Below, piece after piece: positions 22,162 through 48,008 of a stretch of 64,000 nucleotides of DNA. Positions within the stretch are counted from its first letter, which is position 1. Every line of letters begins with the position of its first letter. The stretch covers positions 2,914,001 to 2,978,000 of the forward strand of contig NZ_CP048397.1 in the NCBI RefSeq assembly GCF_010384365.1, given 5' to 3'. This stretch comes from Streptomyces sp. S4.7. Lineage in GTDB: Bacteria > Actinomycetota > Actinomycetes > Streptomycetales > Streptomycetaceae. The notes below the pieces were generated by a model that was given only the letters and a program-made list of their open reading frames with translations, had not been told where the DNA came from and ran no database searches. The translations under genes and the position numbers were made by a program.

Positions 22162-22874
22162 TCGGCGTCGATCCTCAGCAGGAAGGGGAATCCGGGCAGC
22201 GTCCAGCTCGTGGTGAACTCGACGATCTCGCCACGCGATCCGTAGGTGGTGCGGCGCACCACCAGCGCGGCCCCGCCGGGTTCGGTTTCGAGCAGGTCCG
22301 CCTGTTCGGCGGTCAGCAAAGTGGCCGTCATGGACTGGTCTGCGTGGCGCAGTTCGACCCCGAAGCGCTCCGTCAGGGTGCGGTAGAGGGAGCCGTCGAG
22401 CAGTGGCTCCCGGGACAGTGACGGAGCCACGGAGTAGGGGATCCAGGCGTCCTGGAGCGCGGCGGGCGAGCCGTCGACGAGACGTACACGGGTGAGCCGG
22501 TTCACCGTGTCGTCCGCCGTGCCTCCGAGGACCTCGGTCACATCACCGGGCGCGGTCGTGGTCCCGCAGTGGATCAGCCGCGTGGACGGCTCACCGCCCG
22601 TGCCCTCGATCTCCTCGGCGAAGGAACGCAGCCGGTTGAGCCGCCGCCCGCGATCGCCGTGCCCGCTGACGAACGTGCCGCTGCCCTGCCGCCGTACGAC
22701 GAACCTCTCCGAGTCGAGCAGGTCCAGGGCCTGCCGCACGGTCATCCGGCTCACCCCGTACTGCCTGGCCAGGTCCGTCTCGCTGGGCAGCCGCGCCGAG
22801 GGGGCCAGGGCGCCGGACCTGATCCGGGAGACGAGGTCGTCGTAGATCACCTGATACCTGGGTGCGCGCGCCAT
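22158..22874 (-). CDS. GntR/HutC-family transcriptional regulator
   Basis: 238 residues. Winged-helix domain at the N-terminus (YDDLVSRIRSGALAP, LPSETDLARQYGVSRMTVRQ, RRQGSGTFVSGHG) and a UTRA effector-binding domain from about residue 95 (DTVNRLTRVRLVDGSPAALQ, VVRRTTYGSRGEIVEFTTSW). UTRA regulators usually bind sugar phosphates or organic acids from the pathway they control. It is encoded inside the operon between the CoA-transferase and FGGY kinase genes. The likely operator is GTCTAGAC at 29341-29348, just downstream of the operon promoter. Confidence 0.93.
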   Translation of the reverse strand: MARAPRYQVIYDDLVSRIRSGALAPSARLPSETDLARQYGVSRMTVRQALDLLDSERFVVRRQGSGTFVSGHGDRGRRLNRLRSFAEEIEGTGGEPSTRLIHCGTTTAPGDVTEVLGGTADDTVNRLTRVRLVDGSPAALQDAWIPYSVAPSLSREPLLDGSLYRTLTERFGVELRHADQSMTATLLTAEQADLLETEPGGAALVVRRTTYGSRGEIVEFTTSWTLPGFPFLLRIDAE

Positions 22875-22876
22875 GG

Positions 22877-24097
22877 TCAGATGGCTCCCGACCTGCGGAG
22901 TCGGGCCATGTCCTGGTCGGACAGCCCGAGGATGCCGCCGTAGACGTAGCTGTTGTCCTCGCCGACCCGAGGTGGCGCCTTGCGGACCATGGGCGGGGTC
23001 TTCTCCATTTTGATCGGATTACCGGGCATCCGGATGTTACCGAGTTCGGGATGCTCCGATTCAACGATCATGTCACGGGCGGCGATCTGCGGTGACTCGG
23101 CCACTTCCGCGACCGAGGCGACCTTGGCGTAGGGCACGCCCACCTCTTCGAGGGTCCGCGCGATGGCCTCCCTCGTACGGCCCGCCGCCCACGCCCCGAT
23201 CTCGCCCTCCAGGAACTCCTGGTGCGTCATCCGGCCCTCGACACGGGCGAAGCGCGGGTCGTCGGAGAGATCCGGCCGCCCTATCACCGCACAGAGCTTC
23301 GGGAACAGCGAGGCGGTGCCCGCCTGGATGTAGATGGGTCCGTCCGCCGCCTCGTAGACGTTGACCGGCGCCGTCAGCAGATCGCGTGAGCCGCTGCGTG
23401 GCATGTCCTGGCCGAGCATGAGCTGGGACATGAGCCGGATGCCGAGCGCGGAGAACATCGTGTCGAAGGACGCGATGTCCACGAGCTGGCCCTCGCCGGT
23501 GCGTTCGCGGTGCAGGATCGCCAGCAGGGCCCCGATCGCGCCCTGGTAGCCGGTGGTGTAGTCGGCGATGTAGGTGCCGCTGAGGGTCGGTTTGCCGTCC
23601 GGCTCACCGGTCATGTCCATCAGCCCGGACGACGCCTGCGAGATGGCGTCGAACAGGGCGCGGCGCGAGTCCGGACCGGTCTGGCCGAAGCCGGAGATGG
23701 ACACCAGGATGATGTCGGGGTTGATCTCCTTCATCCGCTCGTAGCCGATGCCCATCTTCTCGATCGTGCCCGGCCGGTAGTTCTCCACGACGACGTCCGC
23801 CCAGGCGATCAGCCGCTCCAGGATTGCGAGCGCCTCGGGGTGGCGGGTGTCCAGGGAGGCGTCGTACTTGTTCCGGTGGTAGAGGAACATGTAGACGCTC
23901 TCGTCCCGGTGGTACGGGCCGTGGTGCCGGGAGTCCTCACCGCCCGGCCGCTCGATCTTGACCACCTCCGCTCCGAAGTCGGCCAGGATCTGCGCGCAGA
24001 GCGGGCCCGCGATGAAGCGCGAGAGGTCGAGCACCTTCACGCCGTCGAGGGGTGTCGGACCCGCCGCCCCCTTCGGTGCCGCGTTCGCGTTCGGCAT
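22877..24097 (-). CDS. CaiB/BaiF family CoA-transferase
   Basis: 406-residue class III CoA-transferase: LDGVKVLDLSRFIAGPLCAQ, LADFGAEVVKIERPGGEDSR, the NKYDASLDTRHPEAL stretch, VVENYRPGTIEKMGIGYE and VSISGFGQTGPDSRR. The Asp in YHRDE/DASLD region and the ENYRPG motif are family hallmarks (the catalytic Asp sits near residue 170 in homologues). Transfers CoA between carboxylic acids. ATG at 24097 is used; a GTG 12 nt earlier with AGGAAG upstream is a real alternative. Spaced 31 nt from the TPP gene and 2 nt from the GntR gene. Probably activates the pathway substrate. Confidence 0.9.
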   Translation of the reverse strand: MPNANAAPKGAAGPTPLDGVKVLDLSRFIAGPLCAQILADFGAEVVKIERPGGEDSRHHGPYHRDESVYMFLYHRNKYDASLDTRHPEALAILERLIAWADVVVENYRPGTIEKMGIGYERMKEINPDIILVSISGFGQTGPDSRRALFDAISQASSGLMDMTGEPDGKPTLSGTYIADYTTGYQGAIGALLAILHRERTGEGQLVDIASFDTMFSALGIRLMSQLMLGQDMPRSGSRDLLTAPVNVYEAADGPIYIQAGTASLFPKLCAVIGRPDLSDDPRFARVEGRMTHQEFLEGEIGAWAAGRTREAIARTLEEVGVPYAKVASVAEVAESPQIAARDMIVESEHPELGNIRMPGNPIKMEKTPPMVRKAPPRVGEDNSYVYGGILGLSDQDMARLRRSGAI

Positions 24098-34877: not shown

Positions 34878-34931
34878 ACGCCGGTGAAACGCGTTCGCAC
34901 CGCCCCTCCCCCGGCCGCTAGCGTGCCCGTC

Positions 34932-35447
34932 ATGACCAACCCCGACGGCACGCCTGACACCGCCCCCGCCGCGCATCCCCGTTTCGTCGAGGCCCTGCGC
35001 GAACTGGGCCTCGACGACCTCACCGGCCAGATCCGCGCCTTCCCCGACGCCACCCGCACCGCGGCCGAGGCCGCCGCCGCCATCGGCTGCGAACTCGGCG
35101 AGATCGTCAAGTCGCTGATCTTCGAGGCCGACGGCGTCCCGGTGCTCGTACTGATGGACGGCGCGTCGCGCGTCGATGTGGAGCGCGTACGGCAGGAGTT
35201 GGGCGCCGGGGCGGTCAAGCGGGCGCGCGCGGATCTCGTACGGGAGACCACCGGCTACGCGATCGGAGGCGTACCGCCCTTCGGCCACCGCACCCGGACG
35301 CGTGTGCTCGCCGACCGGGGGCTGCTCGACCACGACGTGGTGTGGGCGGCGGCCGGCACCCCGCACACGGTCTTCCCGATGGACCCCAAGAGCGTGGTCT
35401 CGTACGCCGGCGGCACGCTAGTGGACGTTCGCGAGCGCATGGCGTGA
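34932..35447 (+). CDS. YbaK/EbsC-family aminoacyl-tRNA deacylase
   Basis: 171 residues: HPRFVEALRELGLDDLTGQI, AAAIGCELGEIVKSLIF (the conserved Lys), VLVLMDGASRVDVERVRQEL, and GYAIGGVPPFGHRTRTRVLA, the YbaK signature with G-G-x-P-P-F-G-H. Such proteins clear mischarged tRNA (for example Cys-tRNA-Pro). Its TGA overlaps the GTG of the EamA gene (GTGA), so the two are co-translated. Confidence 0.92.
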   Translation: MTNPDGTPDTAPAAHPRFVEALRELGLDDLTGQIRAFPDATRTAAEAAAAIGCELGEIVKSLIFEADGVPVLVLMDGASRVDVERVRQELGAGAVKRARADLVRETTGYAIGGVPPFGHRTRTRVLADRGLLDHDVVWAAAGTPHTVFPMDPKSVVSYAGGTLVDVRERMA

Positions 35448-36220
35448 CCCCGGCCGTCGCCGCCGCTGTCCTCCTGGCGGCCGTCACCCACGCGACCTGG
35501 AACGCGATCGCGCACACCATCAAGGACCAGGTGGTCGCCTTCACGCTGATCGCCGGCGGTGGCGCGCTGATCGGCGCGGTCGCCGTGTGCTTCGCACCGT
35601 TCCCGGCGTCCGGCGCGTGGCCGTATCTGATCGTCTCGGCGGTGCTCCACCTCGGCTACCAGGCGCTGCTGATGCGGTCGTTCAGCCTCGGCGACTTCGG
35701 CCAGATGTACCCGATCGCGCGCGGTACGGCGCCACTGCTGGTGACCGTCCTGGCGGCGGTCTTCGTCGGCGAGTCCCTGGACGGCTGGCAGGCGACCGGC
35801 GTCGCGGTGGCCTCGGCGGGGCTGGTGGGCGTTGCCCTGTGGGGCATGCGGAGCGCGGAGACGAAGCCACAGTGGCCCGCGCTGACCGCCGCGGTCGCGA
35901 CGGGGGTCTCGATCGCCGCGTACACGGTGGTGGACGGGGTGGGCGTCCGCGAATCGGGCACACCACTCGGCTACATCGGCTGGCTGATGATTCTCCAGGG
36001 CTCGCTGATCCCGCTGTACGCGCTGTACGCACGCCGCCGCCGGCTCCTCACCCAACTCCGCCCCCACGCACGCCTCGGCCTCCTCGGCGCGACGCTCTCG
36101 GTGGGCGCGTACGCCCTGGTGCTGTGGGCCCAGACGCAGGCGGCCCTCGCCCCGATCGCGGCACTGCGGGAGTCGTCAAGGAACGCTTCGGCACACCCCG
36201 CATCGCGGCGGCCGGCCTGA
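35444..36220 (+). pseudogene. EamA/DMT-family transporter, 3' end disrupted
   Basis: Intact through about 244 residues and eight or nine membrane helices (ATWNAIAHTIKDQVVAFTLI at the start, QMYPIARGTAPLLVTVLAAV, LAPIAALRESS at the end). EamA exporters move small metabolites. At 36176-36178, after ALRES, about 37 nt encoding the next half-helix are missing and the frame shifts, giving a 14-residue nonsense tail to 36220. The correct C-terminus (KERFGTPRIAAAGLMVIGIG) is still present in the shifted frame to 36258. The missing segment, SIIVGAATGAVFSQERFGTP, is found at 46486 beyond the island. The gene is therefore split by island insertion. GTG start coupled to YbaK. Confidence 0.85.
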
Positions 36221-36264
36221 TGGTGATCGGCATCGGCCTGATGCTGCGGACGAGTTGAGCGAGG
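36178..36264 (+). repeat. EamA 3'-end repeat, copy 1 (left boundary of island)
   Basis: 36179-36264 matches 46526-46611 at 84 of 86 positions, in direct orientation. It covers the last 26 codons of the EamA gene, the stop, and 6 nt beyond. It probably marks the left attachment region of the island. Confidence 0.8.
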
Positions 36265-36649
36265 GAGGAGCGGGGCCCGCCCCCGGCCGGGCCGCGCTCG
36301 TGTCTCCGCCCCGCTCAGTCCGGTCGGCGCCCACCGCTCGCGCGATCAGCCACCAGACCTCCCGTCTGCCGTCGACCCACACACCGTGCAGGTCGACGGC
36401 AGACGGGACGAGGGCAAGGAAATGGCGCGTAGTCGTGGCAGACGTGTTGTAGCCGACGGGCGGCGCAGACTCGAAGTCCCACCCACGCGGGTGTCTGGCT
36501 CTGCGTTGGAAAATCACTCAACTAGGAGCAAACCCGGAGGTGCTTGGAGCACAATGCACGCGTAGGCGGCGCTCGTGCGTCACACGCCTGTGTGCACGAC
36601 AGCCTTGGCACACTCAGATGGCCAGGAATGGGTGACGGGGGAGAAAGAG
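36265..36649. other. Island left intergenic region with 18-bp hairpin
   Basis: No convincing gene in 385 bp. It holds a perfect 18-bp inverted repeat (36360-36377 and 36391-36408, 13-nt loop). A minus-strand frame (36176-36517) has some protein-like composition in its first 60 codons but no recognised family and ends inside the EamA repeat, so I do not call it. Confidence 0.55.
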
Positions 36650-37822
36650 ATGGCCGATCCTACCGAATTGATGCTGAAAGATCTCGCGCAGAGTTACACG
36701 GAAAGACAAGTCTCCAACGCATTTTTGCGACTTTATGCGGATGACACTCAATTTGGTCGCGCTTTCGCCAGCATTCATGAGCGTCTGAACGGGCATTTCG
36801 AATCCATTAACGACAGAGCTGGAACAACTCGCCACTATTGGGCCGATTCAAGCAGAGAGATGATCACACTCTGCAAAGAAACGGACGACATTCTCCAATC
36901 CCTTAAGAGTGTCGGCATAGAAGTGCGGCTCACGGACACCTATGCGGCAGCCATAGAAAACTGTCAATCATGGCTCACGCAAAGCGGAGGCAGCGCCGTA
37001 CCGGATGACTTCGAAAAGATCAAAATCATCAAGTACGAGCCCATCCTGTCTCGCCCCGGCACCGAACTTCACTTGAAAAAGTCCACCGCACGCCCCCGGT
37101 TGCAGTTGATCGGCGAGGGGTCATATGCGCATGTGTTCTCCTTCATTGACCCGGACTACGGCATCAAATTCGCGGTCAAGCGCGCCAAAAAGAACATGGA
37201 CGAACGCGATCTCCACCGCTTCCGACAAGAGTTCGACATTCTAAAGCGTCTGAGTTTCCCATACGTTGTTGAGGTGTATCAGTACGATGCAACTCGCCAC
37301 GAGTACAAGATGGAGTTTTGTGAAGCCACGCTTCGCGACTACATCAAAAGACGCAATAACATGTTGCCCTTTGCGGCACGAAAGAGAATTGCGCTGCAAT
37401 TCCTGTACGGCATCAACTACATCCACACCAAAGACCTACTTCATCGCGACATCAGCCTTCAAAATGTCTTGGTGAAAACCTTCGACGGTGGAGCCGTTTT
37501 GGTGAAGCTTTCGGACTTCGGCCTCGCCAAAGACAGGACCTCTGAATACACTCGAACGAAAACAGAAATGCGCGGGACAATCCGAGATCCTCTACTGGTC
37601 AGCTTCAAAGAGTATGACGCACGCAATGAGATCTATTCGATTGGGCATGTTCTTTCCTATATCTTTACCGGCAAGGAAGCCTTGATGTCTCAAGCGGACG
37701 CAGCGAGCGACATTGTGAGAAAATGCGTGGCGCACGATGTTGCTAACCGGTACCAGACCGTTCGTGGCCTAATCGGTGACGTTGAGAAACTGGAAGCGAC
37801 CCCTACGGACGCGCCCGCCTGA
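36650..37822 (+). CDS. Ser/Thr protein kinase with unknown N-terminal domain, low GC
   Basis: 390 residues. The N-terminal 150 residues match nothing I recognise and look helical. The kinase domain has a glycine loop GEGSYAHVF (155-163), Lys177 in FAVKRAKK, catalytic HRDISLQN (265-272), DFG (289-291) and EIYSIGHVLSYIFTG in place of the usual D-x-W/Y-S-x-G. No membrane span or PASTA repeat, so it is cytosolic and unlike PknB. ATG at 36650 has GGGGGAG upstream. GC content and codon use are far lower than any neighbour (many AAA, ATT, TTT codons), so it was acquired recently, possibly from outside Streptomyces. Similar lone kinases occur in phage-defence islands; function here is unproven. Confidence 0.88.
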   Translation: MADPTELMLKDLAQSYTERQVSNAFLRLYADDTQFGRAFASIHERLNGHFESINDRAGTTRHYWADSSREMITLCKETDDILQSLKSVGIEVRLTDTYAAAIENCQSWLTQSGGSAVPDDFEKIKIIKYEPILSRPGTELHLKKSTARPRLQLIGEGSYAHVFSFIDPDYGIKFAVKRAKKNMDERDLHRFRQEFDILKRLSFPYVVEVYQYDATRHEYKMEFCEATLRDYIKRRNNMLPFAARKRIALQFLYGINYIHTKDLLHRDISLQNVLVKTFDGGAVLVKLSDFGLAKDRTSEYTRTKTEMRGTIRDPLLVSFKEYDARNEIYSIGHVLSYIFTGKEALMSQADAASDIVRKCVAHDVANRYQTVRGLIGDVEKLEATPTDAPA

Positions 37823-37862
37823 AATTCATGGACGACAGTGCAGGCTGATGCAGGCCCGTTAC

Positions 37863-38063
37863 TCACCCGGTTCTGCACTGCCTTGTCGTTGCGACGTGGG
37901 TCAGCATCGTGATCTCGCCGGCTGCGGCGGGCGTTAACTCCAGTCGCACCACGCCCAATCCGTCTATTGAGGCGCTGGCGCGGAGTTGACCTCCGGTCGT
38001 GTCGATGCCTGCCGCTGTTAGCGCTACGGTCAGCTCAGTTACGACAAGTGGCCGCAATTTCAT
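37863..38063 (-). CDS. Small hypothetical protein
   Basis: 66 residues: MKLRPLVVTELTVALTAAGI, QLRASASIDGLGVVRLELTP. The pattern looks like a compact alpha-beta protein rather than chance coding. No clear ribosome-binding site and no family recognised. It is opposite in direction to the kinase and recombinase genes. Apart from it, 37823-38277 shows nothing. Confidence 0.35.
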   Translation of the reverse strand: MKLRPLVVTELTVALTAAGIDTTGGQLRASASIDGLGVVRLELTPAAAGEITMLTHVATTRQCRTG

Positions 38064-38277
38064 CAGATGCAACACTGCGGTTGGGGTGCATATCAACAGC
38101 CGCCTTCCCCCTATGTCCTGGTCAGCACCCTGTGCGGGTTCGGTGTGGATGGCTCGCCGGGCCGCTTGAGATGCGGCGAATGCGAGCCGGCATGCCTTCT
38201 GAGCTGGGAACTTGTCAGGTGATTACATCTGATGAAAGATTCCTTCGTCTGATGTAGGCGGCGGAGGGTAGTCATTC

Positions 38278-39396
38278 GTGGGTGGGAACAGGCTCGCGCC
38301 GGGGGCTGTTGGGCTGCACCTGGTAGGTGACCTGCCGCTGCTGCGGCCGGACGAGCAGGTGTTCACGGCGATGCTGGACGGCTGGCGCAACCAGCAGCTC
38401 GCGCGGAACCTGGCGTTCTCCACGATCGAGGGCCGGGAGAAGGTGGTACGCGCCTTCGTCCGGCACGCGGACACGTTCCCCTGGGCCTGGTCGCCGCAGA
38501 TGGTCGACGAGTGGCTGGGCGACCTGCGGTCGGTACGGCACCTGCGCCGTTCCACACTCCGCAACTACCAGGGATCGGTCCGGTCCTTCTGCTCCTTCAT
38601 CACCGATCCCGCCTACGGATGGGCGGTGACCTGCGAGGAGCGTTTCGGCGCCCACCCGGTGCAGGTGGTGCACGAGTGGAACACCGCGGTGCACGTGGAG
38701 GAAGCCGAGGCAGACCCCAGTAAACGGGCCTTCACCCGGCAGGAGTTGCAGGCGTTCTTCGACCACGCCGACGACCAGGTCGGCAGGGTCCGCGGCCGGG
38801 GCCGCAAGGGCTGGCTGCCCGCATTCCGCGACGCGATGCTGTTCAAGACCGCGTACGCCTTCGGCCTGCGCCGCAACGAGACGCGGATGCTGGACTCGGT
38901 CGACTTCGGACGCAACCCCGAAGGTCCTGAGTTCGGCGAGTACGGCGTCCTCTACGTCCGCCACGGGAAGGCGAAGAAGGGCTCGCCGCCCAAACGCCGC
39001 AGTGTGCTGACCGTCTTCGACTGGTCGGCGGAGATCCTCCAGCAGTGGAACGAGGAGGTACGTCCGCTGTTTCCCACCGCCGGCTCCGGGGCTCTGTGGC
39101 CGTCGGAGCGATCGGCCCGGGTCGGCTTCTCCCAGATGAACACCCGGTTCACCACCTACCGGGACGCCCTCGGCCTGGACGACGGACTCGACTTCCACTC
39201 CTTCCGCAGGTCCTACGTCACCCACCTGATCGAGAAGGGCATGGACGCCCGGTTCGTCCAGGAACAGGTCGGGCACGAACACGCATCCACGACCGCGATC
39301 TACACATGCGTGTCCTCCGACTTCCGCACCCGCACCCTGCGCAGAGCGTTGGACGCGACGATGCAGGCCGCTCTGCGGCCGGCGAGGAGGGCTTGA
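38278..39396 (+). CDS. Tyrosine recombinase (integrase)
   Basis: 372 residues. SAM-like core-binding domain (about 25-115, including STIEGREKVVRAFVRHADTF) and a catalytic domain with the full set R198 (FGLRRNE), K231-K234 (HGKAKKGS), H307-x-x-R310 (FHSFRRSYVTHL), H333 (GHEHASTTA) and Tyr342 (IYTCVS). The enzyme should therefore be active. GTG start. It is the first gene of a coupled trio: its TGA overlaps the ATG of the HTH gene by one base, and that gene overlaps the zinc-ribbon recombinase. Likely drives integration or excision of the island. Confidence 0.92.
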   Translation: MGGNRLAPGAVGLHLVGDLPLLRPDEQVFTAMLDGWRNQQLARNLAFSTIEGREKVVRAFVRHADTFPWAWSPQMVDEWLGDLRSVRHLRRSTLRNYQGSVRSFCSFITDPAYGWAVTCEERFGAHPVQVVHEWNTAVHVEEAEADPSKRAFTRQELQAFFDHADDQVGRVRGRGRKGWLPAFRDAMLFKTAYAFGLRRNETRMLDSVDFGRNPEGPEFGEYGVLYVRHGKAKKGSPPKRRSVLTVFDWSAEILQQWNEEVRPLFPTAGSGALWPSERSARVGFSQMNTRFTTYRDALGLDDGLDFHSFRRSYVTHLIEKGMDARFVQEQVGHEHASTTAIYTCVSSDFRTRTLRRALDATMQAALRPARRA

Positions 39397-39731
39397 TGAA
39401 ACGCCAGGTCAGCTACCAGTGGCGACTGCGCGAGGTGATGGCCACCCGCGGCATCTTCGCCGCCTCCGACCTCTCCCCGCTGCTCGCCGAACGCGGCATC
39501 GAGCTGTCCTCGGTCCAGGTCTGGCGCCTGGTCACCCAGACTCCCGAACGGCTCTCCCTGCCGGTCCTGGCCGCGCTCTGCGACATCCTCGACGTCACCC
39601 CCACCGACCTGATCGCCACCCGGGCCGAGAACGTCGCCCCGCGCCGCACCGCCGCCTCCGGCGGCGCCGACGTCGTGGACCTGGCCAACACCATCCGGCC
39701 CAAGCGCGCCCGGATCACCCCCGACTCGTGA
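39396..39731 (+). CDS. Cro/C1-type HTH protein of the recombination module
   Basis: 111 residues: LREVMATRGIFAASDLSPLL, AERGIELSSVQVWRLVTQTP, LPVLAALCDILDVTPTDLI is a YdaS/HTH_26-like helix-turn-helix. A basic tail follows (RPKRARITPDS). Good ribosome-binding site GAGGAGG before the ATG. Overlaps both flanking genes, so the three proteins are made together, which suggests a role as recombination directionality factor or as repressor of the module. Confidence 0.85.
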   Translation: MKRQVSYQWRLREVMATRGIFAASDLSPLLAERGIELSSVQVWRLVTQTPERLSLPVLAALCDILDVTPTDLIATRAENVAPRRTAASGGADVVDLANTIRPKRARITPDS

Positions 39732-41224
39732 GCCCGGCCTACGACAGCCGCGAGAAATACGAGCGGTGGCACATACGCACCTGCGCACGCTGCGGCCGCC
39801 GCGCAGCCAAGTCCGCGAACTGGTCAGACGGACCTATCTGCCGCACCTGCTATGAACGGGCCACGCGGGACCGAGGCCGCTGCCCCGGCTGCAAAACCGA
39901 GCGGCTGCTTCCCGGCCGCAACGTGGCGGGAACCGCGATCTGCCGGGATTGCGCAGGCATCAGCCGCGACTTCTTCTGCGACCGCTGCGGCTTCGAGGGC
40001 CTACTCCTGGGCGGACGGCTCTGCGAACGCTGCACCCTCTCCGACCAGCTCACCGCCCTCCTGGACGACGGCACCGGCTGCATCCACCCACAGTTGATCC
40101 CGCTGCACCAGCTTCTGGTGAGCCTGGACCGTCCGAAGAGTCGGCTTATCTGGCTCCGCAACCGGCAAGTCCCGGCACTCCTGCGAGACCTCGCCACCGG
40201 AACAGTGCCACTCACACACGACGCCATCCAGGCCCTGCCGAACTGGCGGACCGCCGCCTACCTGCGCGACCTGCTCATGGACAGCGGCGTCCTGCCTCAC
40301 CTCGACCGGCGACTCCTTCTGTTCGAGCGGTGGCTCGCCCAGCGAATCGCCACCACCGCCGACACCGAACACGCCCGCATACTCCAGCACTTCGCCACCT
40401 GGCACCAGCTTCGCAAGCTCCGAGCCAAGGCGGCCAAGGGCCCGTTGGGCACGAGTACGACGCAGGAATGCCGCCAGCAGATCACCCAGGCTGGTGCCTT
40501 CCTGGTCTGGCTCGCCGCCCGGCACGTCGCGCTGAGCGCCTGCACCCAGACCGATCTCGATGCCTGGCACGCGGAGAAGTACGCCACCCGGCGACCTGCC
40601 CAGGCGTTCTTGCGATGGTGCATGGAGACCCGCCGGATGCCGCGGCTGATCATCCCGAACCACCCGACCACCAACCCCCACCCGATGGGCCAACACCAGC
40701 GCGTCACCGCCCTGCAACGGGTCCTCGCCGACGACAGCACCGCGCTGAGAGTCCGGGTCGCGGCCTGTCTGGTCCTGCTGTTCGCCCAACCCGTCAGCCG
40801 CATCGTTCGCATGACCACCGACGACGTTCTCCGCGACGGCCAGTGCGTCACACTCCGCCTTGGCGACCCGCCCACTCCAGCCCCTGAGCCGGTGGCCGAC
40901 CTCCTGCTCGACTACCTCCAAGCGCTGCCCGCCAGCACCCCCGCCATCAACCAGAACTCGCCCTGGCTGTTCCCCGGTCGCCGAGCGAGCCAGCCCATGA
41001 ACCCCGCCACCCTGCGCGACGCACTACGAAAACTCGGCATCCCTGTCGAGAAAGGCCGCACCTCGGCCATTCGCCAGCTCGTCCTCCAGGCCCCGGCGCC
41101 CGTCATCGCCCAGGCACTGGGCTACCACGACAAGAGCACCACCCGCATCGCCAACGACGCCGGAGCCCCCTGGAAGAACTACGCACCCGGCGACCACAAC
41201 CGGCGATCTCCACGGCTCCGGTGA
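39728..41224 (+). CDS. Zinc-ribbon protein with degenerate tyrosine-recombinase domain
   Basis: 498 residues starting at a GTG that overlaps the HTH stop (GTGA). The N-terminal 102 residues carry six CxxC pairs (19/22, 38/41, 52/55, 72/75, 84/87, 99/102), enough for three zinc ribbons. The rest resembles a tyrosine recombinase: core-binding helices (AGAFLVWLAARHVALSACTQ), FAQPVSRIVRMTTDDVL (Arg) and a C-terminal SAIRQLVLQAPAPVIAQALG. The HxxR histidine is replaced (TSAIRQ) and the place of the nucleophile Tyr reads STTRIANDAG; a Tyr occurs later in WKNYAPGDH. It is thus probably an accessory DNA-binding partner rather than a self-sufficient recombinase. Confidence 0.82.
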   Translation: MSPAYDSREKYERWHIRTCARCGRRAAKSANWSDGPICRTCYERATRDRGRCPGCKTERLLPGRNVAGTAICRDCAGISRDFFCDRCGFEGLLLGGRLCERCTLSDQLTALLDDGTGCIHPQLIPLHQLLVSLDRPKSRLIWLRNRQVPALLRDLATGTVPLTHDAIQALPNWRTAAYLRDLLMDSGVLPHLDRRLLLFERWLAQRIATTADTEHARILQHFATWHQLRKLRAKAAKGPLGTSTTQECRQQITQAGAFLVWLAARHVALSACTQTDLDAWHAEKYATRRPAQAFLRWCMETRRMPRLIIPNHPTTNPHPMGQHQRVTALQRVLADDSTALRVRVAACLVLLFAQPVSRIVRMTTDDVLRDGQCVTLRLGDPPTPAPEPVADLLLDYLQALPASTPAINQNSPWLFPGRRASQPMNPATLRDALRKLGIPVEKGRTSAIRQLVLQAPAPVIAQALGYHDKSTTRIANDAGAPWKNYAPGDHNRRSPRLR

Positions 41225-41244
41225 GGCACCGGCCGACCGTGAGA

Positions 41245-41865
41245 TTACGCCTGCAGGCGCTTGATCCAAGGGTGAGGTCCGTACGTCTTGGAGATCGCAT
41301 CGACGAGCCAGCTTCGCTGCTGATCCGTGAGCACGGGCAGCGCAGCGTCGAAGTCCTCTTCGTCCTTGGGCCGAGGTGTCTTGGCTTTGTAGTAGAGCTG
41401 CACGTCCAGGGCGAGAAAGGGAACACCGTCAGCCGAGGTCATCCCCAGCATGCTGATCGGCCTACGCACCCGGGGGTCACGCCGTGACACCCATTCCTGG
41501 CCGCAGGACTCGTCGATCATGATCTGGATACGCCAGGGATCGTCGGGCCCGGGCCGGCACCAGATGTCGTGAACTTCCAGCGACAAGACCTCGTCCAACG
41601 CCCACGGACGCAGGCTTCCCGGTGGATCGGCGGCCCACCATTGCCAGCCCGACAGAGCCTGCTGGGCCACGAGCTGATCACGCCGCAGCAACAGGACATC
41701 GATGTCCCCATGGCTCCGGATTCGGCGGCCCACCGCGAGCTCGATCGCGAAGCCCCCAGCCACCCACCAGCAGGACTCCAAGCCGGAGAACCTCGCGACA
41801 ACCTCGCTCAGAGAGGCGGGATCCCACCTGCCAAACGGAGCCCGGAGACGTGTCATGCCGCTCAT
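41245..41865 (-). CDS. Nucleotidyltransferase, aminoglycoside-2''-adenylyltransferase-like
   Basis: 206 residues: WWVAGGFAIELAVGRRIRSH then GDIDVLLLRRDQL, the ANT/MNT nucleotidyltransferase motif with two catalytic Asp, followed by PFLALDVQLYYKAKTPRPKD and RSWLVDAISKTYGPHPWIKR. Enzymes with this pattern adenylylate aminoglycosides or are uncharacterised. Two ATGs, 41865 and 41856, are 9 nt apart; the GGGAG upstream is better spaced for 41856. It stands alone, convergent to the recombination module. Confidence 0.8.
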   Translation of the reverse strand: MSGMTRLRAPFGRWDPASLSEVVARFSGLESCWWVAGGFAIELAVGRRIRSHGDIDVLLLRRDQLVAQQALSGWQWWAADPPGSLRPWALDEVLSLEVHDIWCRPGPDDPWRIQIMIDESCGQEWVSRRDPRVRRPISMLGMTSADGVPFLALDVQLYYKAKTPRPKDEEDFDAALPVLTDQQRSWLVDAISKTYGPHPWIKRLQA

Positions 41866-42277
41866 TCTCCCGTGGCTGCCCTTGAGCCGACGCACACCAC
41901 TGTTGATCACGAGCAGTAACAGACACGAGAGCCGAAAGGCCGTCAGGTTCAGGAACACCGACTACTCGATAAACGACTCTTACCAGTCTTGGGATGCGTC
42001 CCGCCAGCTGGCCACGTAGTTCACGCCCCAGACACAGAGAAGTGCATCAGCGTTCAGGTCGTCAGCGTCGGATTCGTCGCTCCCGGTGCTGTTCGCCCCT
42101 ACAAGTCCCCCTCTACGCAGGCCGACTGGCAATTCACCATGTCCGGTCACGCAGCAGAAGACACGACGACGGCCCCGGTGCCTCGGCACCGGGGACCGTG
42201 ATCGTTGGAGAGCGGTCCCTAGCCGGACGCCCCCAGTTGCTCTCAGGCCCGGGTGGTCCAGTGTTGTGTGAGTAGTC
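41866..42277. other. Intergenic region with terminator at 42173-42194
   Basis: Short frames here lack coding character. The perfect 10-bp inverted repeat 42173-42182 / 42185-42194 with a 2-nt loop can end transcription of the minus-strand gene at 42278. Confidence 0.5.
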
Positions 42278-42679
42278 CTACGGGTCTGGGATCGGGTGGG
42301 AGCAGGGCTGATCTGGCGTTTTGGTGGGGAGTGCGTGGATGGGTTCGTTGGGGTGGGCCTCGGTCCCGGGCACGGCGTCTTCCGGCTCGTCGTCCTCGTC
42401 CGGAGACGGGAGTCGGGATCCTCTGCTCTCGGCGACTCGTAGCGCGTCGTGCAGGGCCTCGCTTAGTCGCGTGCTGAGGAAGCGCAGCTCTCGGGTGCTG
42501 ACCTTGTCCTCCCGGAGCATCGCCGCCGCATGGTCGAGCAGCGTGCCACCTGTCTGGAGCTGGACCTCTTCCATCTCGTTGGCCAGCGTGGACAAATAGC
42601 TTTGACCGTCATTGGTGACCAGGTAGGAGCGTTGTCCGTCCTCGCCCGGCCATGGGAGCAGTCGTGCCTGTGTGCTCAC
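42278..42679 (-). CDS. Hypothetical protein divergent to XRE/TPR regulator
   Basis: 133 residues starting at GTG 42679: ARLLPWPGEDGQRSYLVTND, GQSYLSTLANEMEEVQLQTG, AAAMLREDKVSTRELRFLST, RLSEALHDALRVAESRG, then an acidic and proline-rich tail. The helical middle resembles no domain I can name. The gene pairs divergently with the regulator at 43172, and both may answer to the palindrome at 43003-43019. Longer frames exist upstream but start in low-complexity arginine-rich sequence. Confidence 0.65.
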   Translation of the reverse strand: MSTQARLLPWPGEDGQRSYLVTNDGQSYLSTLANEMEEVQLQTGGTLLDHAAAMLREDKVSTRELRFLSTRLSEALHDALRVAESRGSRLPSPDEDDEPEDAVPGTEAHPNEPIHALPTKTPDQPCSHPIPDP

Positions 42680-43171
42680 GTCGACACCGCCCACGCGTGG
42701 ACGGCGCACCGCAGCCCCGCTTGGCAGCGGCATTCGTGTCGTTCGAGCCGTCGATCCTGCGCCACGTACGGTCGGACGAGTCGGTCGTCCTCGCCGCACA
42801 TCGTGGGCCAGACGTACGGGTCACGTGCGCGAGGCACTGCCATCGCCCGTACGTCCGCCGCGCGGTGGTGGCCGGGTGGGGGCGATAACAGGCTGATCAG
42901 CCGCTCGAAAACCCTGCCGATATGGTTCCGCATGTCGACCTGCTTTCACCAGGTAGGCCAAACCCCGGGGTGCTGTCACGCACCGCCGGGGTGTCTTGTC
43001 TCGACAGTCAACGACTGTCTTTGACCAAGCGGCAGCGTTCACATAGGGGTTCGTCTGCACACCGGGGTTCAGGAGGTCCGGCCCAGGGGGTTCGTGATGA
43101 ACCCCCCTTTTCAGAACGAACTGCTGTGACAGGATGAACACGTGACGTGATGTCGGGGGTGACAGCAGGAC
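42680..43171. other. Divergent intergenic region (492 bp)
   Basis: No gene seen. Contains the GACAGTC palindrome and a TTGACC -35-like box at 43021. Short direct repeats of CCGGGGTG are at about 42965-42993. Confidence 0.5.
43003..43026 (+). promoter_or_regulatory. Palindromic operator abutting a -35 box
   Basis: GACAGTC-AAC-GACTGTC is a perfect 7+7 inverted repeat (43003-43019), followed one base later by TTGACC (43021-43026). It lies 146 nt before the XRE/TPR regulator start, consistent with autoregulation. Confidence 0.55.
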
Positions 43172-44545
43172 GTGAGCAAAGACCCGAACCATCAGTTGGC
43201 CGCTGTCATGGCTGAGGCCGGAGCTTCTAACAAAGGGCTGGCCAAGAGAGTTCGCGAAGTCGCTCAGCGGCACGGCGACCACTTAGGTACCACGCACGTT
43301 GCTGTACAGCGGTGGTTGGACGGTGGCGGTATTCAGCGTCAGACCGCCGGGTACGTGGCCGAAGCGCTGGGCGACAAACTGCGGCGGACGATCACGCCGA
43401 AGGATCTGGGCTTCCCGGCGACGGCGCTGGCCCGCGTGCCCGTGGGCGCCACCCGTTACGCCGGTTCCTTGGCCGAGACGCTGAGCACCTTGGAAACCCT
43501 CACGCATCAGCGCCCGGAAGACGGGCCGGGCGACGAAGCGCCGTTGCCCGACAGCGATGTGCACTCGGCCGCTCTGTCGTGGCTCGTCTCGCGGCCGGAT
43601 GGCTTGCCCACGGATGTGCCCGCCACGCGCCGAGTCGGTATGCGTGACGTCGCCGCGATCCGCACCGCCGCCGGATTCTTCATGCAGCTCGACTTCCAGT
43701 TCGGCGGTGGCCACGCACACAAGGCGTTCCGGCACTATTTCCGCGAAGACGTCTTGCCATTGTTGAGTGGCAGCTACAGCGCCAAGGTAGGGGAAGCCCT
43801 CTTCCAGGCCGCATCGGAGATGTCCCAGCTCCTTGCATGGAGTGCGTACGACAGCGGCAAACACGCCTTGTCCGACCGCTACATGATGTCGACGCTGCGT
43901 TTGACGCAGGTCATCGGCGACCGTGTGATGGGCGCCCGCATCCTGACCAACATGAGCCACCAGGCCAATTACCTTGGCCAGGCCCCGCGTGCCGTTATGC
44001 TCGCCCGCGCCTCCGTAGAAGGGGGCCGAGCCACCGCAACACCGCGCGCCATGGCGTTGTTTTTCGCGCATGAGGCTCGCGCGCTCTCCACCGCAGGAGA
44101 TCACAGGGGCGCCGAGCGTGCGATGAACGAGGCGGAGCGGTTCTTCGAGCACGCCGACAGCGCCGAAGACCCCGAGTGGCTGTCGTACATGGACGAGGCG
44201 GAGTTGATCGGCGAGTTCTGCCACTGCTTCCGGGATCTCGGACAGGGGCCCGATGCCGTCCGGTTCGCAGAGCGGGCCGTGGAGCTGACCGATCCCAAGT
44301 ACGCCCGGACACTGGGCTTTTGCCGCATGGTTCTCGCTCAGAGCCAGCTACTCAACGGCGACCTGGAGGCCGCCGTGACGACCGCTGGCCTTGCTGTCAG
44401 AGCTGGCGACGCCCTTCAGTCCGCGCGCTTTCAGCGGTACGTGAGCGACTTCCAACGTGAGGTCTCGGTCCACGCGCCCAACCCTGTCGTCCAGCAGTTC
44501 AACGGCGACGTGCAAGCCGCGATGCAACGCCTGGACGACGAGTAA
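43172..44545 (+). CDS. XRE/TPR-type transcriptional regulator (NsdA-like)
   Basis: 457 residues. N-terminal HTH-like segment (HQLAAVMAEAGASNKGLAKR, THVAVQRWLDGG) and a long helical TPR region: SEMSQLLAWSAYDSGKHALS, YMMSTLRLTQVIGDRVMGAR, LTNMSHQANYLGQAPRAVML, RALSTAGDHRGAERAMNEAE. This layout matches Streptomyces regulators such as NsdA, which repress development and antibiotic genes; assignment to that exact protein is not claimed. GTG start with AGGA nearby. It is convergent to the phosphotransferase gene (7-bp gap) and divergent from the 42278 gene. Confidence 0.85.
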   Translation: MSKDPNHQLAAVMAEAGASNKGLAKRVREVAQRHGDHLGTTHVAVQRWLDGGGIQRQTAGYVAEALGDKLRRTITPKDLGFPATALARVPVGATRYAGSLAETLSTLETLTHQRPEDGPGDEAPLPDSDVHSAALSWLVSRPDGLPTDVPATRRVGMRDVAAIRTAAGFFMQLDFQFGGGHAHKAFRHYFREDVLPLLSGSYSAKVGEALFQAASEMSQLLAWSAYDSGKHALSDRYMMSTLRLTQVIGDRVMGARILTNMSHQANYLGQAPRAVMLARASVEGGRATATPRAMALFFAHEARALSTAGDHRGAERAMNEAERFFEHADSAEDPEWLSYMDEAELIGEFCHCFRDLGQGPDAVRFAERAVELTDPKYARTLGFCRMVLAQSQLLNGDLEAAVTTAGLAVRAGDALQSARFQRYVSDFQREVSVHAPNPVVQQFNGDVQAAMQRLDDE

Positions 44546-44551
44546 GCAGGC

Positions 44552-45472
44552 TCAGCCCGGGTTCCAGTCGCGCGGGGCATCCTCGTCACGGAGCGAGGCG
44601 ATACGACGGCTGTACTCCGCTGCCGTCTCGTCGCTCTCCGAGACGTTCTGCATCAGCCATGTCGTCATGTTGAACTCCTGCAATGACCGCAAGGTGGGGA
44701 ACCCCGCCCACGAGCGGAGATCCCGACCGTACGCACCGACGAACGCGCCGTACTCCTGCGGCGTCTGCCAACCCAAGCTGTGGTGCTCCGTAGCGGTGAC
44801 CATCAGGTCCCACTCGGGGTGGTCGTAACTGAACCTCTCCAGGTCGATCAGGATCACCCGGTCACTGCGGTCCACCATGAGGTTCTGTACGTGGGCGTCT
44901 CCGTGCACAGGCCCCTTCTGGGAATCGAAGCGCAACTCTTCCACCCGGCCGCGGAGTTCACGCGCGCGCTTACGCAGGAACGCGCGGTCGTCCTCCGGTA
45001 TCTCGGTCGCCGCGTTGATGCGTCGGTCTGTCCGGTCCAGCACCGGGTACGGCGGGAGACTCAGGGAGGCGGGCAGGGTGAGCGAGTGGAGGTCGCGGAG
45101 AATCGCCCCCAGCTCGCCGTACGTCGGCTTACGGTCGCTCTCCTCGATCAGATGCCAGAACGTCACCGGGTGACCATCAATGATCACGGGTTGCTCCAGA
45201 TCATCCAGAACCCGCGTCGCCGGAAAGCCCTCACGGGCCAGCCACCGGGACACAGCGACCTCACCCCGCGCGGATTCCAGATACTCGGTCGACCGAGCGA
45301 TCCGGACCACCACCGGGTGCGCCTCCAGGCGGAACAGAGCATTCTCACCCAGGCGGATCAGGCGGGCCCCATCACCATCAAGCCCCGCTTGCCGACACGC
45401 CTCAGCAACCACCCGCGTAGCGACGGCCGAGGTAAAGCCTTGTTCCGCGTTCAGTTCAGCACCAGACGGCAT
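44552..45472 (-). CDS. Aminoglycoside-phosphotransferase-like small-molecule kinase
   Basis: 306 residues: LIRLGENALFRLEAHPVVVR, VSRWLAREGFPATRVLDDL, catalytic loop VHGDAHVQNLMVDRSD and VILIDLERFSYDHPEWDL (metal Asp). This is the APH/choline-kinase fold. The typical H-G-D-x-x-x-x-N motif is complete, so it should be active, but the substrate (aminoglycoside, choline, homoserine) cannot be read. Second possible antibiotic-modifying gene in the island, after the nucleotidyltransferase at 41245. Confidence 0.88.
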   Translation of the reverse strand: MPSGAELNAEQGFTSAVATRVVAEACRQAGLDGDGARLIRLGENALFRLEAHPVVVRIARSTEYLESARGEVAVSRWLAREGFPATRVLDDLEQPVIIDGHPVTFWHLIEESDRKPTYGELGAILRDLHSLTLPASLSLPPYPVLDRTDRRINAATEIPEDDRAFLRKRARELRGRVEELRFDSQKGPVHGDAHVQNLMVDRSDRVILIDLERFSYDHPEWDLMVTATEHHSLGWQTPQEYGAFVGAYGRDLRSWAGFPTLRSLQEFNMTTWLMQNVSESDETAAEYSRRIASLRDEDAPRDWNPG

Positions 45473-45720
45473 GCCCCTACCAACTCCTCAGATCCGCCGA
45501 CCTGCCATGCGACCACCGGGCGCACTGTCACGACAACATCCATACTGATAGAACAGCCCCGCAGGCCACGACAGGCGAGAAACCAAGGCGTGACGTTCAG
45601 CCGTACACGCGGAGACTCGGCTGTCCGGAGATCACATGCGGCACGATCACGTGCGAGTTTCCCCTCTGACCGCCATGCGTACCAAGATCAATCGCAGGTC
45701 GGCCGATTAGGGTCGGAGGC

Positions 45721-46380
45721 ATGACGACACCCGTTGCCAGCAGCGCCTTCGACTCGCTCCGCCTCGACGCCGTGCCCGACCAGGAGGCGCTGCGCCGGGC
45801 TTACGCACTCCCCGGCGACGCGGCCGTGCGCAAGCAGATGACCGAACTTACCGAACAGACCCGGCGGTTGATCGGATGCTCACCGCTGGTCCTGGTCGCC
45901 AGCGCGGACGCCAACGGTAATTGTGACGTCTCCCCGCGCGGTGGCCCAGCCGGGTTCGTCGCCGTCCTGGACACACGGACGGTGGCGATACCGGACGCGA
46001 CCGGCAACAAGCGTCTGGACACCCTGCAGAACGTCATCGCCACCGGACGGGCCGGGCTGCTGTTCCTCATCCCGGGGCGCACCACGACGCTCAGGGTGAA
46101 CGGCCGGGCCTGCGTCTCCACCCGCCCGGAGCTGCTGTCGCAGCTGACTGCCGTGGGTAAGCCGCCGGCCAGTGCGCTGGTGCTGGGGATCGAGGAGGTC
46201 TACCCGCACTGTCCCAAGTCGCTTCTGCGCAGCGGGGCCTGGAAGCCGGAGCAGTGGCTGCCGGCGGACGCCCAGCCGACCTCGGCCGAGGTGACGCTGG
46301 CTCAACTGCGGATGCCGGAGCTGACGATCGCTGACATCGAGCAGACGGAGGCGGATTCGCTGAAGTACCGGTACGAGTAA
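45721..46380 (+). CDS. Pyridoxamine-5'-phosphate-oxidase-family flavoprotein
   Basis: 219 residues: LTEQTRRLIGCSPLVLVASA, DANGNCDVSPRGGPAGFVAV, DATGNKRLDTLQNVIATGRA, GLLFLIPGRTTTLRVNGRA and YPHCPKSLLRSGAW. This matches the MSMEG_1061-like split-barrel FMN proteins. Redox partner or substrate unknown. The 248 bp upstream, shared with the divergent phosphotransferase gene, shows no clear operator. A GGAGG immediately precedes the ATG. It is the last island gene before the second EamA 3'-end copy. Confidence 0.85.
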   Translation: MTTPVASSAFDSLRLDAVPDQEALRRAYALPGDAAVRKQMTELTEQTRRLIGCSPLVLVASADANGNCDVSPRGGPAGFVAVLDTRTVAIPDATGNKRLDTLQNVIATGRAGLLFLIPGRTTTLRVNGRACVSTRPELLSQLTAVGKPPASALVLGIEEVYPHCPKSLLRSGAWKPEQWLPADAQPTSAEVTLAQLRMPELTIADIEQTEADSLKYRYE

Positions 46381-46485
46381 CGGACCGACAGCCGCTGGAC
46401 CACCAGCCCGCCGAACCCCCAAAACCAGCACGCCCGAGATCAATCTCGGCGCAGCCGGTAATTACAGCTTGAGCAAGAGTTGACA

Positions 46486-46611
46486 TCGATCATCGTCGGC
46501 GCGGCGACAGGGGCGGTGTTCTCCCAGGAACGCTTCGGCACACCCCGCCTCGCGGCGGCCGGCCTGATGGTGATCGGCATCGGCCTGATGCTGCGCACGA
46601 GTTGAGCGAGG
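46486..46611 (+). repeat. EamA 3'-end fragment, copy 2 (right boundary of island)
   Basis: 46486-46605 encodes SIIVGAATGAVFSQERFGTP and the rest of the EamA C-terminus to the stop, with no start codon. It begins exactly where the 5' part at 36175 stops and includes the segment missing from copy 1. 46526-46611 repeats 36179-36264 (84/86). Confidence 0.85.
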
Positions 46612-46944
46612 AAACCGTAGCGGCAACGGTGTCCGGCCCATCCGGCGACGCCGTCACGTGCGTAACGTCGCAGCGATCAGCCGCTGTTGGCCGCGATTCC
46701 CCGTTCAATCGGGCACGGCACGCGCCCGCCAGCCGCACCGTGGGCGGGCTTCGCCGCTGCTGTCGGCATGGCGATTGCCCGGGTGAGGTGTGGCGAATCG
46801 TGGCGAACAGTCGCTCTGGTCGTGCGGGTGTCCGGCGGGCCGGTAGGTTGCGAGACGTTCGGTCATGTCTCTCCCAGAGCGCCTGCCTGCGACAGGCGGG
46901 CCCCAACAGGGTTGGGAACGCAGAGAGACGGGAGATCGGACGAG
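46612..46944. other. Gene-poor remnant between EamA copies 2 and 3
   Basis: No convincing gene in 333 bp. Two adjacent direct repeats TGGCGAA (46791-46797, 46801-46807) are the only structure noticed; the same heptamer recurs at 47324-47366. Confidence 0.5.
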
Positions 46945-47070
46945 ATGGAGCGATCGAAGAGTCGGAGAAGGCGTCGCCGGCGCGGCCAGTCACCGGACTG
47001 GGCGCAGTTGGCGGCACTGTTCCTCACGGCGATCACTGCCATCGCGGGGTGCGTCCAGCAGTTTCTGTGA
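46945..47070 (+). CDS. Small single-span membrane protein
   Basis: 41 residues: a strongly basic head (ERSKSRRRRRRRGQ) and one hydrophobic helix (WAQLAALFLTAITAIAGCVQ). GGGAG lies upstream of the ATG at a long but acceptable spacing, and a good terminator follows at 47160. The composition is that of a membrane-anchored microprotein, as found on Streptomyces plasmids and integrative elements; function unknown. Confidence 0.5.
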   Translation: MERSKSRRRRRRRGQSPDWAQLAALFLTAITAIAGCVQQFL

Positions 47071-47517
47071 CGCATGGAGGGTGAGCCGGACGACTGGTTG
47101 GGCGAGTAAGTGAGCCCGGCCGATGCCTACTCGGCCGGACCCACCCTGCCCCGCGCACTGCCTGGCTTCGGGCTGTATCCCGAAGCCAGGCTTTGTGCGT
47201 GTGCGGGGAGATCGGCGCACCAGGAGGTCTGGCCTCGTAGGTGCCACAGGATGAGATAACCGCAAGTCAACGGGGTCATCAAGTGCTCGCAGACGATCAC
47301 GGGGCGATTTGTCGCTTTTCCGCTGGCGAATGATCTTGGCGAACGGTGGCGGTGGAGGGTGGCGAAATACGAACGTCCAGCTAGCGGACTCGCGAGGGTA
47401 GCGAAACCTGGCGTTTGCCCTTGCACCGCTGCGGCCGACCGCGCCGACGATCGATAACAGTTGTCGGCAACGGCCACCGGTGCGACCGTACCCACGGACG
47501 GCGAAGACAGGCGCGAC
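47071..47517. other. Gene-poor remnant with terminator and TGGCGAA repeats
   Basis: Nothing coding is evident. A perfect 13-bp hairpin (47160-47172 / 47179-47191) followed by TTTG ends the microprotein gene. TGGCGAA occurs three times in direct orientation at 47324, 47337 and 47360. Confidence 0.55.
47160..47191 (+). terminator. Terminator after the 41-residue gene
   Basis: Perfect 13-bp inverted repeat with a 6-nt loop and a following TTT. Confidence 0.75.
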
Positions 47518-47575
47518 CATCGCGGCGGCCGGCCTGATGGTGATCGGCATCGGGCTGATGCTGCACACGAGTTGA
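47518..47575 (+). repeat. EamA 3'-end fragment, copy 3
   Basis: The last 18 codons and stop of the EamA gene occur a third time, with two base changes from copy 1 (CGGGCTG, GCACACG). The core gene for the ankyrin protein follows 23 nt later, so this is probably the original chromosomal 3' end. Confidence 0.75.
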
Positions 47576-47597: not shown

Positions 47598-48008
47598 ATG
47601 AACAACAGGCGGCGCAAGAAGCTGTCGCGGCGTCTCGTGTGGGCCGCGAGGCTCGGTGGGGCGAGGGAAGTGGCCGCGTTGCTGCGGGGCGGGGCGCCGG
47701 CCCAGACGTGCGACTCCGAGGGGTCGACGCCCCTGTACGCGGCGGCCGTACACGGGGACGCCGACTCCGTACGCCTCCTGCTGGCGGCGGGCGCGCTGCC
47801 CGACACCGAGAGCGGGGACGGCACGGAGGGCACGCCGCTGTGCGGGGCGGCGTGCTGGGGGCACTCCGACGCCGTACGCGAACTGCTCGCGTACGGCGCC
47901 GATCCGCGGCTGCGCGAGGACGGCGGCAGCGGGCACTCGCCGCTCGAATGGGCGCGGACCGGGCCGTATCCGGAGACGGTGCGGCTGCTGGAGGAGGCGG
48001 GGGCCTGA
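47598..48008 (+). CDS. Ankyrin-repeat protein
   Basis: 136 residues. A basic head (NNRRRKKLSRR) precedes about three ankyrin repeats: SEGSTPLYAAAVHGDADSVR, LLLAAGALPD; TEGTPLCGAACWGHSDAVRE, LLAYGADP; SGHSPLEWARTGPYPETVRL. Protein-protein interaction scaffold; partner unknown. No signal peptide. Probably lay directly downstream of the EamA gene before island insertion. Confidence 0.88.
   Translation: MNNRRRKKLSRRLVWAARLGGAREVAALLRGGAPAQTCDSEGSTPLYAAAVHGDADSVRLLLAAGALPDTESGDGTEGTPLCGAACWGHSDAVRELLAYGADPRLREDGGSGHSPLEWARTGPYPETVRLLEEAGA

Follow-up and report, generated by a model that had tools for sequence, protein, structure and literature searches.

An EamA-family gene as an integration site of serine-integrase AICEs in Streptomyces, with a decayed element and repeated gene ends in Streptomyces sp. 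S4.7

We analysed a stretch of 64,000 nucleotides from Streptomyces sp. S4.7 (contig NZ_CP048397.1, positions 2,914,001 to 2,978,000), called the window below and numbered from its first letter, in which a genomic island interrupts an EamA-family transporter gene. The EamA gene is almost certainly a target of actinomycete integrative and conjugative elements (AICEs) that carry a serine integrase, and the window holds a decayed element of this kind. Comparison with relatives also makes it quite likely that the gene has been rebuilt after insertion, probably repeatedly in this clade, and that spare copies of its 3' end were left over from this.

The 5' part of the window gene (35444-36177, plus strand, last residues ALRESS), assigned by a match to PF00892 (5.9e-7), has a frame that is open and colinear with its relatives as far as GAGTCGTC at 36170-36177. 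The continuation absent at 36177 begins at 46486, and the dinucleotide TC there (46486-46487, plus strand) is the same as the TC at 36176-36177 (plus strand); the two are the right and left sides of the crossover in attB, the bacterial attachment site. A preliminary description of this DNA had proposed a gene split at these positions with three copies of its 3' end, and comparisons of frame, repeats and relatives bear out both the positions and the arrangement. Copy 1 (36178-36258, plus strand), taken as the rebuilt end, lacks 37 bp directly after the TC, as its intact equivalent in strain NP-1717 reveals, and the window gene is therefore frameshifted. Repeated restoration of the gene had been proposed; with the 37 bp missing the window gene is not restored now. 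Copy 2 (46488-46605, plus strand) is a complete, 118-nt orphan EamA end with the residue changes AIG to ATG and FFKER to FSQER relative to the genus consensus. The 86-bp repeat reported for copies 1 and 2 was reproduced at 36179-36264 and 46526-46611, with 84 of 86 positions (97.7%) identical. The shorter third copy, reported at 47518 beside core DNA, was also found: it is 58 nt long (47518-47575, plus strand), 95-96% identical to the other two window copies over 57-59 bp, and adjoins an ankyrin-repeat gene (47598-48008, plus strand) that is the native 3' neighbour of EamA in this clade. When the 821-bp gene was compared with its own genome, the sole further match was one of 38 bp at 89% identity, about 0.68 Mb away (40 of 378 candidates were scored), and the EamA repeats of the window exceed chance.

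The integration site was defined in a sample of 392 Streptomyces genomes (G numbers below), besides which named relatives were scanned and 80 of 236 kept. The 3' end was matched in 286 of the 392, some of the matches being paralogues, and 31 of the 392 encode a serine integrase similar to that in the split EamA gene of G030 (E <= 1e-60). Seven of the eight closest integrases (77-100% identity over nearly the full query length) lie inside EamA, in G030, G109, G130, G264, G296, G343 and G363, and one (G024) lies elsewhere. None of 22 other integrase loci (L052-L073, flanks up to 1.5 kb) has a part of EamA adjoining the integrase. Streptomyces camponoticapitis (L141, G392), found among the named genomes, provides an eighth case with a complete element. 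Serine integrases at split EamA genes in 7 of 392 sampled genomes and in S. camponoticapitis are what the preliminary description had suggested looking for, and they agree with its view of EamA as a recurrent integration site. In a wider sample of relatives 105 of 248 had a match, all of them Streptomyces and all already among the sampled genomes.

The insertion point is identical in all eight cases: one site within EamA, 118 bp ahead of the stop codon, and not the very 3' end of the gene as had been supposed. The gene halves are 3.1 to 19.4 kb apart in six genomes and on different contigs in G030, and the junctions carry the crossover TC, with GAATCG-TC-GGTCAAG and GGTATGACA-TC-GATCATC as an example of the two sides. 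The element of G363 encodes a Resolvase/Recombinase/zinc-ribbon integrase, RepSA (PF20199, 1.8e-148), FtsK (PF01580, 2.5e-25) and GntR. Homologues of all four were found in six of the seven further elements; in the 3.1-kb element of G130 we found the integrase only, and no homologue of RepSA, FtsK or GntR. With an integrase beside the attachment site, a RepSA-type replication initiator and an FtsK/SpoIIIE-type transfer protein, the int-bearing elements in EamA are, on their gene content, AICEs of one serine-integrase clade. No second EamA 3' end was found between the attachment arm and the integrase in the eight elements (the middle of the G030 element was unread), so insertion simply splits the gene, and at the level of sequence these comparisons show AICE insertion at attB splitting EamA.

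The integrase stands beside the 3' part of EamA in six genomes and beside the 5' part in G030 and S. camponoticapitis. One attB is thus seen with two insertion orientations (L035 and L231 versus L074-L080 and L082-L085), and within the clade the crossover bases seem to occur in either order with respect to the integrase, which would be a natural switch for the direction of insertion. G372, which we did not count among the seven, has EamA interrupted at this very crossover; the 12 kb read gave no homologue of the clade integrase (G363 query). Within the G372 insert, a distant EamA paralogue of full length directly precedes the orphan 3' end (L260, G372:C37). The same-clade integrase of G024, at its different place, is accompanied by a similar TCGATCA sequence (L081, G024:C56, about 2050-2110), a possible secondary attB.

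The island of the window carries the distal attachment arm of such an element (attR side; 46454-46485, minus strand). These 32 nt left of the TC at 46486 score 29.1 bits with a distal-arm matrix built from ten sequences, S. niveus and G344 being excluded, and rank first of 127,952 window 24-mers. With the proximal-arm matrix they score 12.5 bits and rank second, which is in keeping with arms built as imperfect inverted repeats; the bases right of 36177 fit neither arm matrix (-14.2). Three cargo genes (42278-45472) have the same order as in the S. camponoticapitis AICE, where they end beside the distal arm: a gene for a hypothetical protein (42278-42799, minus strand, 79% identical to its counterpart there), one for an NsdA-family TPR-like regulator (NF053720; 43172-44545, plus strand, 94%) and one for an APH-family phosphotransferase (44552-45472, minus strand, 95%). 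The left part of the remnant is a 157-bp segment (37883-38039, plus strand) that is 82% identical to the interior of the same AICE. In the window and in S. niveus, a PPOX-type flavoprotein gene (TIGR04025; 45721-46380, plus strand; same place in S. niveus) separates the cargo from the distal arm. We found no integrase, Rep or Tra homologue in the window (tblastn with G363 proteins, E <= 0.01), the only GntR-like match in the window lying outside the island at 22368-22889 (tblastn, G363 query), and no clade integrase in the window genome at E <= 1e-60. The island therefore does not have the genes by which an AICE is recognized and counts as a remnant rather than a member. The distal arm at the crossover, the cargo in clade order at 79%, 94% and 95% identity and the lack of int, rep and tra together indicate an island that is, as read from its sequence, mainly a decayed AICE.

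Other candidates for the origin of the island fared poorly. A tRNA gene as target was rejected, the window having no tRNA, nor was any named RNA family found in it at gathering scores. A phage origin was set aside, as the island had no megablast match in 50,697 phage records. Of plasmid records, 58 had a match, and the 20 of these that were listed all hit the transposon described below or the PPOX gene. A tyrosine recombinase gene at 38278-39396 was rejected as the island integrase; it is part of that transposon, a separate 3943-bp unit with three identical copies.

The arrangement without an island, an intact EamA gene directly before the ankyrin gene, had been named as a check and is seen in G044, where the gene has 85% nucleotide identity over 734 bp, its end is intact and the ankyrin gene region resumes 42 bp later. 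Several relatives combine an intact gene with parts of the element. In S. niveus, about 0.1 kb beyond an intact EamA gene, 4.5 kb at 89% identity to window 42136-46606 comprise the cargo, the distal arm and a complete orphan end, with the ankyrin gene next. In G344, whose EamA protein is 96% identical to that of the window over its first 244 residues, the intact gene is followed by the same cargo, arm and orphan end, then 3.8 kb holding ABC-transporter-like genes (named from reading only), a short third copy and the ankyrin gene. Behind the rebuilt end of G344 stands ATGAACAACAGACGGCG, the opening 17 nt of the ankyrin gene, which is what an empty-site template would be expected to leave. In NP-1717 an intact EamA gene is accompanied by a TIR-domain cargo gene, by the cargo genes already named and by two partial ends of 65 and 28 bp. 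The intact gene of ISL-1 is followed, 4 bp past its stop, by a fragment from inside the integrase gene, and two orphan ends lie on other contigs; one of these, C63, carries the arm and, 3.3 kb beyond its orphan end, matches the region 3' of EamA in relatives. In G267 an orphan end starting at the crossover stands 2.5 kb beyond the intact gene. The distal arm is thus present at full orphans of the window and of S. niveus, G344 and ISL-1. The rebuilt loci of G344, NP-1717, S. niveus and G267 yielded no homologue of the clade integrase, RepSA or FtsK, nor did the whole genomes of G344 and G267 yield a clade integrase (E <= 1e-60). The intact genes, element remnants and orphan ends of these relatives indicate a gene that was rebuilt afterwards, and for the window lineage they indicate rebuilding strongly, its route being inferred.

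Such loci form a small part of those surveyed. In the named set 78 of 80 loci are intact at the crossover, and 5 of the 78 gave matches to further copies within the locus, other contigs being outside this search (L139, L140, L152, L165 and L195); the extra match of L195, weak and upstream, is probably due to chance and was not counted. Two 3'-end matches at E <= 1e-5 occur in 12 of the 392 genomes. Among these, orphans lie at the locus in G000, G344, G267 and G372, and G090 has a partial end far away that was not counted; in G019, G020, G075, G127, G146, G237 and G295 the second match is a paralogue. We also left out G142, G013, G055 and G107 (genes with internal deletions or frameshifts), G026 (an isolated partial end that does not start at the crossover) and G101 (which starts at the crossover and lacks the 5' part of the gene).

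The identities of the spare ends bear on their source. Full-length copies are 98% identical within S. niveus and at most 93% identical to the copies of other genomes; the main pair of ISL-1 is 96% identical, and at most 89% to other copies, its own third copy included; those of G267 are 95% identical, and at most 86% to other genomes' copies. The spare ends of these three look like the host's own gene, so that rebuilding looks like a later event of recombination or repair. The copies of S. camponoticapitis (93% identical over 69 sites, versus 91-92% to S. niveus) are indecisive on this point.

Traces of more than one cycle are seen at some loci. The order in S. camponoticapitis is a complete AICE, a full orphan end, the PPOX gene with its trailer, a half copy and the ankyrin gene, and in the window and S. 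niveus this trailer marks the right end of the element. Our reading is that an older element lost its right end in a deletion reaching into the old 3' end, and that rebuilding and a second insertion came afterwards. The third copies of the window and G344 are preceded by sequence like that just 5' of the APH gene of the AICE; in the window this is a short remnant (47457-47517, 87% identical to the G344 element, over 63 bp) joined to the copy at a shared CA. It is read as the right end of an older element, as is its counterpart in G344. A second, tyrosine-type site at the very 3' end was considered for the half copies of the window, NP-1717, TSRI0281 and PTY087I2; since the window half copy joins element-like sequence at the shared CA, a deletion suffices to explain it. 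The earlier proposal of integration with repeated restoration survives in part: a mobile element entered EamA, the gene appears to have been rebuilt, and the third copies suggest that there was more than one such cycle. Such serial arrangements may also be swapped between strains by homologous recombination.

Taken together, the following course would account for the window. A serine-integrase AICE entered attB in EamA (crossover TC, 118 bp before the stop) and split the gene, and the element decayed in the window lineage. EamA would then have been rebuilt in front of the element by recombination or repair with an empty-site copy of the gene, such as might be found on a sister chromosome freed of the element by excision. 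This would have removed the integrase end of the element and left the distal arm (attR) and the orphan 3' end in place. The rebuilt gene would have attB again and be open to another AICE, a state that S. camponoticapitis resembles. Copy 3 would be left over from an earlier cycle, a deletion having taken away the right end of that element and part of the orphan 3' end. A later 37-bp deletion from the TC would have broken the rebuilt window gene anew, and a transposon and cargo genes would then have enlarged the island. We hold this explanation as a whole, from AICE insertion through decay and rebuilding to possible re-entry, with moderate confidence, slightly lowered by the fact that the window's own copies fall outside the reach of the identity comparison.

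Several observations weigh against this explanation. The window copies are 95-96% identical to one another and yet 94-97% identical to the intact end of NP-1717; the long copies of G344 are only 86% identical, less than the 93% between its copy 1 and NP-1717. One orphan of ISL-1 (C3) has no placement near the gene, and its identity to the other two is 88-89%. The orphan of G267 lacks a clear arm, and its 2.5-kb insert yielded no AICE gene. An empty-site flank is clear only in G344 and is weak or absent in the window, S. niveus, NP-1717, ISL-1 and G267. The remnant before copy 3 is visible only through G344, not in the self-comparison of the window, and the comparison included no strains of one species in successive states. 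The single deletion at the TC could be a coincidence.

As to the route of rebuilding, an empty-site template with an illegitimate right joint is our tentative suggestion, to which we give somewhat less than an even chance. The 37-bp deletion, which is missing from G344, NP-1717 and S. niveus, has its left edge at the crossover TC (with a 2-base ambiguity), and we infer that it arose by end-joining of an integrase cut at attB. Cleavage of single attL and attR sites by the phiC31 integrase in vitro is described in the parts of PMC11784100 consulted here, which suggest rejoining by DNA repair. A bolder possibility, which we consider rather unlikely, is a self-regenerating site, in which integrase breaks at attL or attB would be repaired by copying the end from an empty sister chromosome, with end-joining into the element. 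If true, the gene would be healed, the element trapped without its integrase and attB free for the next element; serial cycles would build an island with a ladder of orphan ends, and failed repairs would leave deletions at the crossover, as in the window.

Less probable still is a variant element or circle with a captured 3' end and flank, which would produce an intact gene, the element body, attR and an orphan end at once through a homologous single crossover. This predicts an identical topology, with the start of the ankyrin gene behind copy 1 of G344, but it needs an aberrant excision beforehand, and the copies should differ unless the circle came from the same species, whereas they are alike in S. 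niveus, ISL-1 and G267. Many tyrosine-integrase islands restore their target at tRNA genes by bringing a replacement end, and the preliminary description had this model in mind, with an element whose attachment site is flanked by an EamA 3' end, so that integration makes the gene whole again. An intact gene plus an orphan end in S. niveus, G344, G267 and ISL-1 would fit; we nevertheless regard it as very unlikely, given that the eight int-bearing elements split the gene and have no such end between arm and integrase in what was read of them, and that the extra ends of S. niveus, ISL-1 and G267 resemble the host gene. Simple tandem duplication or slippage as the source of the three ends, unrelated to integration and followed by chance insertion of cargo, is scarcely credible. 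The intact genes of TSRI0281 and PTY087I2, with half copies 1.5 and 0.8 kb downstream and no AICE gene found at these loci, speak for it; against it, full orphans start at the integrase crossover, those of ISL-1, G344, S. niveus and the window have the distal arm, and AICE cargo lies between the copies.

Apart from the shared cargo, the island contains a protein kinase gene (36575-37822, plus strand; PF00069) whose best PADLOC models are mad6 and Stk2; PADLOC shows no system there. Cargo at this element position varies, the kinase of the window being replaced in NP-1717 by a TIR-domain protein (L139 11268-12491) that is 57% identical to one in the G363 AICE, and both are possible defence genes. 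The PPOX region (45681-46461) recurs at 85-94% nucleotide identity in dozens of sampled genomes at other loci. Copies 2 and 3 are separated by a 0.85-kb segment (46612-47456) with a conserved 41-residue open reading frame (ORF), and its portion 46713-47424 is likewise found between the two partial EamA ends of NP-1717. About 600 bp of it (46801-47417) occur at 72-78% identity in seven other sampled genomes at different genomic places; the ORF, which has a hydrophobic stretch, could be read in four of the seven. This is possibly a locus for a small membrane peptide or an RNA, with no match to any Rfam family. Directly 5' of EamA is a gene (34884-35447, plus strand) that we take to be YbaK-like and that has the same position in several relatives.

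The transposon inside the island (38046-41988) is present in three 100% identical copies in the genome, the others being at L042 and L043; the loci examined in close relatives lack it. It encodes the tyrosine recombinase mentioned above (38278-39396), an HTH_26 protein (39393-39731), a second recombinase-like protein (39725-41224; a weak Phage_integrase match below the Pfam cutoff) and a nucleotidyltransferase-like protein (41245-41958, minus strand; PF10706); no terminal inverted repeats and no target duplication were seen. Tn554-like transposons have a layout of two recombinase-like proteins and a small HTH protein. The 3943-bp unit is probably a recently active transposon of this layout, the likeness being in layout only.

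These results name an integration site in a gene of most sampled Streptomyces, with both attachment sites readable and two orientations, and the site could serve as a new integration tool. The natural series of split genes, genes split over an older remnant, rebuilt genes and genes rebuilt and then broken lets one ask how hosts recover genes interrupted by serine-integrase elements, and orphan gene ends are suggested as a count of past invasions. In one open library we found no paper joining EamA with serine integrases in Streptomyces, or EamA with large serine recombinases; island databases may list the site.

Large serine integrases of the phiC31 type use a two-base crossover and arms that are imperfect inverted repeats, and insert in coding sequence. 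The EamA-site elements share these features, as known here from sequence alone, and differ in their target. Like pSAM2-like AICEs, the relatives at the EamA site have a serine integrase, RepSA, an FtsK-type transfer protein and a GntR regulator; the window copy differs from AICEs in having lost int, rep and tra. According to the consulted parts of Ghinet et al. 2011 (PMC3218068), 19 of 144 AICEs have serine recombinases, some of them integrated in protein-coding genes; those parts describe neither an EamA target nor two insertion orientations nor the rebuilding of a host gene. The portions of PMC9513070 used here report decay and accretion of Streptomyces AICEs, including remnants with partial integrase, cargo and repeats and elements stacked at one site, as well as 14 AICE insertion sites in protein-coding genes. 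The remnants in those portions keep their flanking direct repeats, whereas insertion in EamA destroys attB, which comes back only where the gene is rebuilt.

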